A DNA stretch of 64,000 nt, taken from assembly GCA_903884105.1 (NCBI GenBank), contig CAISDJ010000137.1, forward strand, positions 1-64,000, written 5' to 3'. Below the pieces are notes generated by a model, which was not told the origin of the DNA, searched no databases, and saw only the letters and a list, made by a program, of their open reading frames with translations. Of this stretch, positions 41,870 to 58,698 are shown in pieces. Origin of the DNA: an uncultured Pseudomonadota bacterium. Lineage in GTDB: Bacteria > Pseudomonadota > Gammaproteobacteria > Steroidobacterales > Steroidobacteraceae. A program made the translations under genes and the position numbers. The stretch's first letter is position 1. Every line of letters begins with the position of its first letter.

Positions 41870-41873
<4 letters not shown>
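40488..41873 (+). CDS. trpE: anthranilate synthase component I
   Basis: A 461-residue enzyme that makes anthranilate from chorismate using ammonia from TrpG. The feedback site LLES is near residue 30 ([19 protein letters not shown]). The chorismate-binding domain carries [48 protein letters not shown] and [18 protein letters not shown] precedes ATG 40488. It is the first structural gene after the attenuator. Its TGA overlaps the GTG of trpG, so the two subunits are probably made in equal amounts. Confidence 0.97.
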
Positions 41874-42471
<598 letters not shown>

Positions 42472-42472
<1 letters not shown>

Positions 42473-42764
42473 GGAACCTCTGATTGACCTATCCGCACTC
42501 GCGTTGCGTCTCCAATCCTCTGCTGCGAGGCATCGGTCCGCAGGCGATATCGGGAATATCGACAAGGACCGTAACGACGCAGCAGAGGATTAGAGGCGCA
42601 ACCCATATAATGTTGAATTCATTCATTGATCGGGACGGGATCCATTTCGTGCATGGCAGCGTTGCTCCTCCCTTGAGTACATCAAGTACACAGCGGTCGT
42701 CGCGCCTCGCCCTGCACGAAATGGCTCGCCGTCGCGAGCGCGGATAGGTCAATCAGAGGTTCCC
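42472..42764. mobile_element. MITE-like element between trpG and trpD
   Basis: A 293-bp segment bounded by about 32-bp inverted repeats (42472-42503 and 42733-42764) with one mismatch; the outer 25 bases, beginning GGGAACCTCTGATTG, are identical. Inside are two further hairpins: 42506-42527 with 42578-42599 (two mismatches) and CCATTTCGTGCA (42642-42653) with its complement at 42713-42724. It contains no credible reading frame, so it is non-autonomous. No clear target duplication is seen. The right end supplies an AGAGG ten bases before the trpD start. The ends remind me of some IS5-type elements, but that is unverified. Confidence 0.85.
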
Positions 42765-42769
42765 AGACC

Positions 42770-43831
42770 ATGGCGTTGCGAAAGACGCTTGAGCAGCTCC
42801 TCGCCGGGGAGGACCTCACTGAGTCCGAGGCCGCGGACCTGTTGCTGGCCCTGACCGAGTCGAGCGTCTCGCCGGCGATGGCGGGCGGGTTGTTGATTGC
42901 GCTCCGCTGCAAGGGCGTAACGCCTGCCGAAGTCCGCGGCTTTGCCGGCGCCATGCGGGGTCTTGCCCGCCGTCCGCATATCGATCGCGGCGTACCGCTG
43001 GTCGATATCGTGGGAACCGGCGGCGACGCCTCGGGCAGCTTCAATCTGTCGACCGGCACGGCATTGCTGATCGCGGCGATGGGACTGCGTGTGGTGAAGC
43101 ACGGCAACCGCTCCATCTCGAGCAAGTCGGGTAGTGCGGACCTGATGGAAGCGTTGGGTCTCAGGTTGCCGCTCGACGAAGCGGCCGCCGGCGCATGCCT
43201 CGACCAGACGAACTTCACGTTCCTGTTTGCACCTCACTATCACCCGGCGATGAAAGCCGTGGCGCCCATTCGCCAGGCACTCGGTGTGCGAACTGTGTTC
43301 AACATCCTCGGACCTCTCACGAATCCTGCCGAGCCGCAGTACCACCTGATCGGCGCGTTCAACCTCGACACCGCGAAGCTGATGGCCGACACGTTGAGTG
43401 GCATGAACCTCGAGCGCGCCTTCGTCGTGCACGGCGAGCCAGGCTGGGATGAAGCGACGCCCGTGGGTCCATTCACATTGTTCGATGTTCGCCCGGGTTC
43501 GGTCCGCGCGTCGGTGCGCGATGCCGATGTCTTCGGCTTGCCAAAGTGCACCGCCGATGAGCTGAAGGGCGGCGATGCCGAGTTCAACGCAGCCCACCTG
43601 CGGACCGTGTTGTCCGGCCAGGAGCGGGGCGCGCATCGCAATGCCATCGTCCTCGGTGCAGCGCTGGTCCTTGAGCTTACCGGCACGATCACGGATCCGC
43701 GCGCGGCGGCGCGCGCGGCCGAAGCAGCGATCGATGCAGGCAAGGGCTTGCAGTTGCTCGAACGCTTGGCCGCGTTCAACGCTGAAAACACGAAAGTTGC
43801 TGCCGCGTCGCAGTCGGTCCCCAGGAGCTAG
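42770..43831 (+). CDS. trpD: anthranilate phosphoribosyltransferase
   Basis: A 353-residue enzyme that joins anthranilate and PRPP. Motifs: DIVGTGGDASGSFNLST (PRPP loop), VVKHGNRSISSKSGSADLME, FLFAPHYHPAMKAVAPIRQ and the following GVRTVFNILGPLTNPA. ATG 42770 is just outside the MITE-like element, whose terminal repeat provides the only visible Shine-Dalgarno. It is separated from trpG by 297 bases, while the rest of the operon is compact, so expression of trpDCFBA may differ from trpEG. Confidence 0.97.
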   Translation: MALRKTLEQLLAGEDLTESEAADLLLALTESSVSPAMAGGLLIALRCKGVTPAEVRGFAGAMRGLARRPHIDRGVPLVDIVGTGGDASGSFNLSTGTALLIAAMGLRVVKHGNRSISSKSGSADLMEALGLRLPLDEAAAGACLDQTNFTFLFAPHYHPAMKAVAPIRQALGVRTVFNILGPLTNPAEPQYHLIGAFNLDTAKLMADTLSGMNLERAFVVHGEPGWDEATPVGPFTLFDVRPGSVRASVRDADVFGLPKCTADELKGGDAEFNAAHLRTVLSGQERGAHRNAIVLGAALVLELTGTITDPRAAARAAEAAIDAGKGLQLLERLAAFNAENTKVAAASQSVPRS

Positions 43832-47827: not shown

Positions 47828-48472
47828 ATGCCGCTAGTCACCTGGTTCGTCGACTTCATCCTGCACCTCGATCGGCATCTTACCGATCTGGTGGCGATGT
47901 ACCAGTACTGGATGTACGGCATCCTGTTCCTGATCGTGTTTGCCGAGACGGGCTTCGTCGTCACGCCGTTCCTGCCGGGCGATTCGCTGCTGTTCGCGGT
48001 GGGTGCGCTGGCCGCAGTGGACCAGAGCGGTACGCTGAATCCGGTGTTCCTCTGGCTGCTGCTGATTGTGGCCGCTGTTTTCGGTAACGAACTCAATTAC
48101 CGGATCGGCCACTACATCGGACCCCGGGCATTCACCGGCAAGATCCCCGGGTTGAAGCGCGAGTACCTGTTCAAGACCCAGGCGTTCTACGACAAGCATG
48201 GCGGCAAGACCATCGTGCTGTCCCGCTTCCTGCCCATCATCCGCACGTTTGCGCCGTTCGTCGCCGGCATCGGCCACATGAAGAAAACCACCTTCTCCAC
48301 CTACAATCTGGGCGGTGCCATCGCCTGGGTGTCCCTGTTCATCTGGGGCGGGTTCCTGTTCGGCAACGTGCCACTGGTCAAGAACAACTTCGGGATCGTG
48401 ACCATCGTGATCATCGTTGTGTCGCTGCTGCCGCTGGCCTGGGGGCTCCTGCAGTCCCGCAAGTCGCATTGA
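47828..48472 (+). CDS. DedA-family membrane protein
   Basis: A 214-residue inner-membrane protein of the DedA/VTT family. Marks are FAETGFVVTPFLPGDSLLF near residue 40, the central GNELNYRIGHYIG, and FLPIIRTFAPFVAGIGHM with the essential Arg. DedA proteins flip or recycle lipid carriers such as undecaprenyl phosphate and phosphatidylethanolamine. Five or six hydrophobic stretches are visible. It lies between the EF-hand gene and a DUF2007 gene. Confidence 0.92.
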   Translation: MPLVTWFVDFILHLDRHLTDLVAMYQYWMYGILFLIVFAETGFVVTPFLPGDSLLFAVGALAAVDQSGTLNPVFLWLLLIVAAVFGNELNYRIGHYIGPRAFTGKIPGLKREYLFKTQAFYDKHGGKTIVLSRFLPIIRTFAPFVAGIGHMKKTTFSTYNLGGAIAWVSLFIWGGFLFGNVPLVKNNFGIVTIVIIVVSLLPLAWGLLQSRKSH

Positions 48473-57990: not shown

Positions 57991-58698
57991 CTACAGCGCG
58001 CCGACGGCCTCGCTGACGAGCTCGCCGATCCGGGCCAGGAATTCCGTGCTCATCGTGGGGTGGAAGCGGTCGACGTCCGGGCTGCCGATGGCGAGCAGGC
58101 CGAAGGCCGAGTTCGGGCCCAGGGGCAGGAGAGCAGCCGAACCGATGGCTACGGTCCCTTCGCCGAACAGGTAGTCACGCTGGCTGTCGCGGACCTGGCC
58201 ACAGCGGGGCCGGGCCGACTCGAAGAACGTATCGAACATCTTGAGCTCGGCATTCGAGCGTTCCACTACCCGCAGATGGCGGCTCGTGAGCTGCTTCAGC
58301 TCAGGAACGTCGGTGCGGTTCAGGACCAGCAGCCACTGCGAAGCGCCGAAATCCTCGCGCAGGGAGGCCTCCAGCGTGTCGATCAGCTGCGTAGCACCGC
58401 GGGCGCGGATCAGCCGGCGGGCGAGGTGATGGATCTTGTCGGACAGGGCGTCGTTCGCACGGGCGACGTCGACGAACTCGCGAACCTTGCTCTCGAGCTT
58501 CTGGTTCTTGTCGCGCAGCACGAGCACCTGGCGTTCGACCAGCGAGACGGTGGAGACGCCGCGCTCATGCGGCACGCGCAGGCGGGCCAGCACATTCGCG
58601 TTGCGCTCGAAGAAGTCGGGGTGGTTCTGCAGGTAGTCTGCCACCGCTTCTTCCGACGTGGCGACCGTGTCTACGCCGCGAATGCTCTGTTTGGTCAT
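57991..58698 (-). CDS. DUF484 family protein
   Basis: A 235-residue cytoplasmic protein with an N-terminal helical region (EEAVADYLQNHPDFFERNA, the family's typical opening) and a coiled-coil VLRDKNQKLESKVREFVDV. A GAF-like C-terminal half follows. It is almost always encoded between dapF and xerC, as here (25 and 28 bases apart). Function unknown. Confidence 0.93.
   Translation of the reverse strand: MTKQSIRGVDTVATSEEAVADYLQNHPDFFERNANVLARLRVPHERGVSTVSLVERQVLVLRDKNQKLESKVREFVDVARANDALSDKIHHLARRLIRARGATQLIDTLEASLREDFGASQWLLVLNRTDVPELKQLTSRHLRVVERSNAELKMFDTFFESARPRCGQVRDSQRDYLFGEGTVAIGSAALLPLGPNSAFGLLAIGSPDVDRFHPTMSTEFLARIGELVSEAVGAL

Follow-up and report, generated by a model that had tools for sequence, protein, structure and literature searches.

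A mobile inverted-repeat element between trpG and trpD as a probable donor of the trpD ribosome-binding site

The trp operon encoded in the DNA analysed here, a stretch of 64,000 nucleotides (the window), is interrupted by a 293-bp non-coding segment between trpG and trpD, which raises the question of where this segment came from and how trpD might be translated behind it. Family models identify the gene order as trpE-trpG-element-trpD-trpC-trpF-trpB-trpA, with matches for trpE, trpC and trpF that are strong yet below the NCBI curated cut-offs, and these identities bear out the claim of an earlier note on this DNA that the element splits trpEG from trpDCFBA. Related bacteria commonly join the two genes closely. 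In 101 of 106 related loci the distance from the trpG stop to the trpD start lies between -29 and +43 nt, most often at -4; some genomes count twice in this survey, gaps were taken from the start codon nearest the TrpD match so that single values may err by some codons, and three further loci had no trpG nearby. The exceptions are a sister species of the same genus with 309 nt (L052 and L154, one contig), one sequence with 357 nt (L057 and L226) and a locus with 90 nt (L211). At about 4638-4936 of L226, trpG and trpD are likewise kept apart by an insert, GC-rich and palindromic, that contains a 21-nt inverted repeat; considered as a relative of the element, it was set aside as unrelated, the two sharing only a 15-nt chance-like match.

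The segment has the architecture of a miniature inverted-repeat transposable element (MITE; Table 1). Specifically, its terminal inverted repeats (TIRs) are 32 nt long with 97% complementarity, and they enclose two further inverted repeats, 42503-42539/42566-42602 (37 nt, 81%) and 42639-42657/42709-42727 (19 nt, 89%). The predicted RNA fold of 42440-42800 reaches -198.5 kcal/mol, whereas shuffled sequences average -126.9 (z -12.3), none of 100 reaching so low. The terminal repeats of about 32 bp, the two long internal hairpins, the left repeat that begins with the final base of the trpG stop, and the internal TATAAT, all described in the earlier note, are thus borne out. The element is too short for a transposase gene and has none inside. 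An Rfam scan returned only two miRNA matches, both sub-threshold and taken as hairpin artefacts.

Table 1. Features of the trpG-trpD junction in window coordinates
Feature	Position	Strand	Basis
MITE copy of the GATT type, between trpG and trpD	42472..42764	+	homologous copies in own genome and sister species
Left terminal inverted repeat; first base is the last base of the trpG stop	42472..42503	+	inverted-repeat detection
Right terminal inverted repeat; carries the Shine-Dalgarno-like site of trpD	42733..42764	+	inverted-repeat detection
CTAG target site, including the TAG stop of trpG	42469..42472	+	young copies with CTAG on both sides
C-AG, read as second CTAG target copy minus T; identical in sister species	42764..42766	+	comparison of flanks; ancestral junction inferred
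First inner hairpin	42503..42602	+	inverted repeat, fold, covariation
Second inner hairpin	42639..42727	+	inverted repeat, fold, covariation
AGAGGT, Shine-Dalgarno-like; buried in the TIR stem when folded	42755..42760	+	sequence and fold
TATAAT in AT-rich linker; no -35 partner in consensus scan	42606..42611	+	sequence
trpG, gene upstream of the element	41870..42472	+	family model; TAG stop 42470-42472
trpD, gene downstream of the element	42770..43831	+	family model

The comparison with other genomes indicates that the segment is almost certainly a MITE of a recently mobile family. The host genome holds ten near-full copies and one more split across two contigs, plus fragments, deletion derivatives and end remnants, and among 59 genomes searched, matches at E 1e-5 occurred only in this genome and in its same-genus sister (57 of 59 without a match). 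A plasmid collection searched with the element gave no match. Named relatives of the host TrpD include Steroidobacter and Peristeroidobacter, which suggests that the host probably belongs in or close to the Steroidobacteraceae. When the joined flanks of ten host copies were searched in the sister, and those of nine sister copies in the host, the element proved to be missing from the other species at 8 of 10 and 6 of 9 sites, respectively, giving 14 filled/empty sites; at one of these (g1C223) the flanks matched in two separate pieces and the junction is not clean. The remaining sites are the shared hslO site, present once in each set, and one host and two sister sites with no usable match. At C135 and C96, the filled allele reads CTA-element-TAG and the allele of the other species has a single TAG. 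The window itself contains two such vacant places. The minus-strand start of a DUF484 gene at 58698 carries no element (CCTAATG), and the sister has a MITE there with AGAGG 7 nt 5' of the ATG; the start of a dedA/VTT gene at 47828 is likewise free of the element, and in the sister (locus L149) the GTG of this gene follows 11 nt behind the AGAGG of a MITE end. Copies stand at the hslO start in both species (L032 2059-2349 and L115 1222-1514); they lie in opposite orientation, are not nearest relatives, and point either to an inversion or to repeated insertion into a single site. Micro-palindromes of about 22-30 bp, comprising little beyond the two element ends (L133 about 1372-1394, L137 about 1393-1422, L135 near 1363), are apparently extreme deletion derivatives.

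The copies fall into two types with one common core, named after their ends: GCAC copies end in GGGAACCTCTGCACAGG and GATT copies in GGGAACCTCTGATTGACC. An exact CTAG stands on both sides of all three full GCAC copies (C135, C96 and g1C155), and none of 16 GATT rows has an exact target duplication, the trp copy being flanked by CTAG and CAGA. The 4-mers beside GATT copies are often close to CTAG (CTTG, CTGG, CCAG, CTAA) and not exact duplicates, and their terminal repeats are still nearly perfect. YTAR or CTAG is typical of IS5-type targets. In L300, a locus from a genome of the same family, an IS5-family transposase gene (Pfam DDE_Tnp_1 and DUF772; NCBIfam NF033581 at 331 bits, cut-off 140) lies between ends GGGAAGCTCTGCRCAGGTG, flanked by CTA and TAG. 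The ends of this insertion sequence, GGGAAGCTCTGCACAGG, are similar, though not identical, to those of the GCAC MITE, and both adjoin CTA/TAG; the insertion sequence differs in its internal transposase, of which the MITE has none, and in ending with GAGC where the MITE has GAGG, which makes the Shine-Dalgarno-like site a feature of the MITE. Searches of the host and sister genomes with PF01609 and with the L300 transposase found no intact gene; the sole matches were a remnant on C20 and an edge fragment on C15, near which an end-like GGGATTCTCTGAACAAGG is readable. For the full-length insertion sequence with the same ends that the earlier note had proposed to look for, the outcome is an IS5-family element in L300 with similar, not identical, ends, and no intact transposase was found in either species. 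Judged from these ends and target sites, the family likely belongs to IS5. Repeated copies, CTAG duplicated at young copies, empty sister sites and IS5-like ends together lend strong support to the mobile element that the earlier note had suspected. Both the further copies and the empty sites for which it had suggested a search turned up, in the two species and at the 14 sites, and the pattern that it had held to speak against mobility, a single copy at the same place in distant relatives, was not found, the relatives lacking the element.

Parts of the element reach further than the family itself. Core positions 30-260 match at 71-74% in four genomes of genus g4, with parts in others, and core matches at E 1e-5 occur in 14 of 396 genomes, the host included (two candidates scored per genome). 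In L309 and L313, which belong to another genus, the same two-hairpin core (about 1470-1760) lies between quite different terminal repeats, GGGCCTGTTAACAC, so core and ends look exchangeable. A scan of 200 family genomes with a TIR pattern gave many matches near chance, as a control pattern matches too, yet it led to related MITEs and insertion-sequence copies in other genera. Among those MITEs, in unchecked frames, 2 of 4 copies in G151 and 0 of 4 in G084 are start-adjacent, a weaker habit.

How the element came to lie at the trp junction can be partly reconstructed. Removing the element and one target copy gives GAGGGCTAGACCATGG as the inferred ancestral trpG-trpD junction. The right target copy is without its T in the trp copies of both species, which speaks for one shared insertion. 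In the model that we propose, the ancestor shared by this species and its sister would have received a non-autonomous, probably IS5-type MITE in the CTAG at the trpG stop; the duplicated target would have preserved the trpG stop, the tight junction would have been replaced, and the outward-facing AGAGGT of the terminal repeat would have become the ribosome-binding site of trpD.

That the right TIR donates the Shine-Dalgarno site of trpD is probable. The 3' end of AGAGG (42755-42759) lies 10 nt ahead of the trpD ATG at 42770, and the earlier claim that the right repeat holds the only visible Shine-Dalgarno site of this gene is supported and found to describe much of the family. Specifically, 15 distinct GATT sites are visible at both ends, and at 12 of them a start codon lies 5-13 nt past AGAGG (GGAGG in C130), a range set after the data were seen, and the downstream protein matches a Pfam model at all 12; the count takes hslO once and treats C63 and C130, matched by eye, as one copy over two contigs with a common 31-nt end. 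In the host genome these sites precede trpD (10 nt), hslO (7), gltS (7), gloB (10), a SPOR-domain gene (7) and an amidohydrolase gene (7), and in the sister a glpD-like gene (9), the DUF484 gene (7), a tgpA-like gene (5), a fatty acid hydroxylase gene (7), a GNAT gene (12) and a cysH-like gene (13). The misses are C5 (15 nt), C42 and C128. Two of six GCAC sites (full C135, C96 and g1C155; derivatives C61, C60 and C28) also qualify, at uvrD and truB with 11 nt each, and the difference between the two types is not significant (Fisher p 0.12). That other copies of the family often stand in the corresponding place ahead of other genes suggests a mobile element able to settle between genes and leave them active.

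These counts also bear on a plainer account, in which the element is an ordinary MITE that prefers YTAR sites, some of which happen to lie near starts, with AGAGG merely rendering insertions harmless and nothing being regulated. The CTAG at young copies, the intermixing of copies of both species and the opposite-orientation, non-nearest hslO copies, a pattern that repeated hits on a single site (or an inversion) would produce, all agree with it. However, gene calls in the 64-kb window (46 genes called by a codon score devised for this analysis, coding fraction 0.79) place only 5 of 63 YTAR sites next to a start, although 45 of the 63 are intergenic, so motif preference and harmlessness do not yield 12 of 15. 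The corresponding start-adjacent share is 1.5% of all positions and 3.1% of intergenic ones. The 12 of 15 GATT sites exceed the 5 of 63 YTAR sites (Fisher p 5e-8) and would exceed even a null rate of 25% (P 1e-5). A cruder null from open reading frames alone is higher (11 of 63 YTAR sites and 1772 of 8858 positions), since any 100-codon frame then counts as a gene.

The copies outside the 15-site count speak for the plainer account, the start bias there being slight. Among ten GATT copies seen at one end because of contig ends (C272, C55, C49, C137, C216, C264, C275, C277 and, in the sister, C183:182 and C142:95), only the last, at dedA, has a start in range. The rate of 12 of 15, with one end visible at random, would predict 40% for these copies, and the observed share is lower (P 0.046). 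With these pooled and every unseen end taken as a miss, 13 of 25 copies qualify (P 1e-8 against 5 of 63; 0.003 against 25%). Solitary GATT-like end remnants (L045, L046, L047, with a TTG frame left unchecked, L049, L050, L137, L138, L139, one in L143 and one in L151) face a family-supported start in 2 of 10 cases, pheS (12 nt) and pepA (8 nt); the micro-palindromes, too, were left out of the 15. Weighing also the conservation of the trp copy far beyond synonymous sites, described below, we regard the ordinary-MITE account as unlikely.

If the repeat provides this site, the fold of the element becomes relevant, since the same repeat is one arm of a stem. The outer ends of the terminal repeats are paired in the fold of all 19 aligned copies, and 94.5% of cells in the alignment pair under the trp structure. 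Furthermore, 26 pairs are altered on both sides against a shuffled mean of 10.7 (0 of 500 shuffles; slid controls 2-7), among them 15 of the 30 pairs of the TIR stem. DNA-level palindrome correction could also make arms covary, and the structure was derived from one of the aligned sequences; the covariation therefore shows that pairing is kept, not why. At trp the TIR stem comprises about 25 unbroken pairs. In the full fold, the probability that the Shine-Dalgarno site is unpaired is 0.00 in all eight copies tested; with the first 12 nt of the element and the 2 nt before it blocked, it rises to 0.32-0.80 in all eight (trp 0.32, sister trp 0.41).

Taken with the Shine-Dalgarno consensus and the footprint of a ribosome, these predictions suggest a way in which trpD translation could depend on trpG. 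In read-through mRNA the two terminal repeats would pair and hide the Shine-Dalgarno site; a ribosome finishing trpG would cover the first 10-12 nt of the left repeat, thereby freeing the site, and this release would couple trpD translation to that of trpG. As the hiding strand is the one that a ribosome stopped on trpG would cover, we propose a stem-mediated coupling, though the stop-dependent unmasking itself, predicted from the fold, remains tentative and short of an even chance. A likeness exists to coupling by RNA unfolding, as described for MS2 coat-lysis and rpmI-rplT, where a Shine-Dalgarno site buried in structure is opened by the upstream ribosome (available text of PMC12548453); here this is predicted, and the structure would come from a transposable element, a source of which that text makes no mention under 'transpos'. 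According to the same text, coupling shows a negative correlation with structure just past the stop of the upstream gene and declines with distance, trends which, with 297 nt between the trpG stop and the trpD start, count against strong coupling here. Verified upstream genes stop on the first base of the element in two cases, trpG before trpD and, in the sister species, rbfA before truB; the other two of four candidate upstream frames, at C135 and g1C192, gave no match to a Pfam family. Since the stop of a verified upstream gene at the element border is missing from most start-adjacent copies, coupling cannot account for the family as a whole.

The stem could serve a different purpose. RNase III might cut the TIR stem, or RNase E the AU-rich linker, which would separate the trpEG from the trpDCFBA mRNA and free the Shine-Dalgarno site. 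The stem that family covariation maintains would be a fitting substrate, the site is unpaired with a probability of 0.17-0.63 once the left arm is absent, and RNase III is reported to cut Correia-containing transcripts at the TIRs (available text of PMC10969869). Sequence alone, however, cannot show cleavage, and the covariation of the arms could also stem from palindrome correction in DNA; processing of this kind, which the earlier note had also proposed, appears possible but rather unlikely. Very improbable, in turn, is the internal promoter or polarity element that the earlier note had considered. The two trp copies share the TATAAT, which the family consensus lacks, but consensus scans of 42400-42850 returned no promoter-like site, in a search confined to sigma-70 types, and no terminator-like site. 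Neither the promoter, with a TATAAT that has no -35 partner, nor a terminator-like polarity thus finds support in these scans.

Whether the trp copy has acquired a function can be judged from its conservation. Between the two species, 4-fold sites differ by 35% in trpG (3' 118 codons) and by 42% in trpD, whereas the element differs by one substitution and, within 42622-42651, a single altered stretch of 5 mismatches and 16 gap columns. Each trp copy has the other as its closest relative (0.021; support 100/99), and the copies of the two species are otherwise intermixed by relatedness. At the altered stretch, a hairpin arm, the sister copy (L150 5468-5772) has a longer variant like family copy g1C79, as if by conversion between copies. 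Being unusually conserved between the sister species, the trp copy may be mobile in origin and functional now, and selection explains this most simply. The two copies could also have become nearly identical through a short tract transferred recently. Identity reaches past the element on both sides, by about 26 nt in trpG and 11 nt in trpD, copies of both species intermix elsewhere in the family, and the altered stretch has a conversion-like resemblance to another family variant. Yet the genes right beside the element differ by 11% and 15% of nucleotides and the identical runs outside it are short, and transfer in place of selection strikes us as comparatively unlikely.

The combined reading, in which an inserted MITE provides AGAGGT as the ribosome-binding site of trpD, its stem couples trpD to trpG, and the element serves between cistrons as a coupling device that is tolerated and, at trp, probably kept, is one that we hold with slightly better than even confidence. 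A wider version is possible, though less likely than not: the whole family may act as a mobile intercistronic cassette, in which YTAR keeps the stop, a TIR gives the ribosome-binding site and the paired TIRs couple the flanking genes, with the copy at trpG-trpD, and possibly that at rbfA-truB in the sister, domesticated and under selection.

Among known systems, the Correia/NEMIS elements of Neisseria are similar by description, being short TIR elements with hairpins near genes, and processing of their transcripts by RNase III is reported in the available text of PMC10969869 and PMC2229807. They are, however, described with promoters and IHF sites (available text of PMC2649163 and PMC2229807), whereas no sigma-70 consensus promoter was found in the element here; its host is not Neisseria, and its recurrent feature, unlike those in the Correia descriptions, is a TIR-borne Shine-Dalgarno site near start codons. 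ERIC and RUP repeats are likewise mobile hairpin repeats within transcribed regions, but the effect given for them in the accounts available is on the stability of the upstream transcript, with Shine-Dalgarno donation not mentioned there. More generally, reports on bacterial MITEs credit them with introducing RNase sites, small RNAs, promoters and protein segments. A 2024 MITE review contains neither 'ribosome' nor 'start codon', and in the open-licence literature we found no case of a MITE whose TIR donates a Shine-Dalgarno site and no text pairing 'miniature inverted-repeat' with 'translational coupling'. The findings present the TIRs of this family as recurrent candidate ribosome-binding sites of ordinary genes, namely trpD, gltS, gloB, hslO, uvrD, truB, cysH and dedA, with remnants at pheS and pepA. 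If true, this would show how an element lives inside the operons of a gene-dense genome and how transposition may rewire translational coupling.
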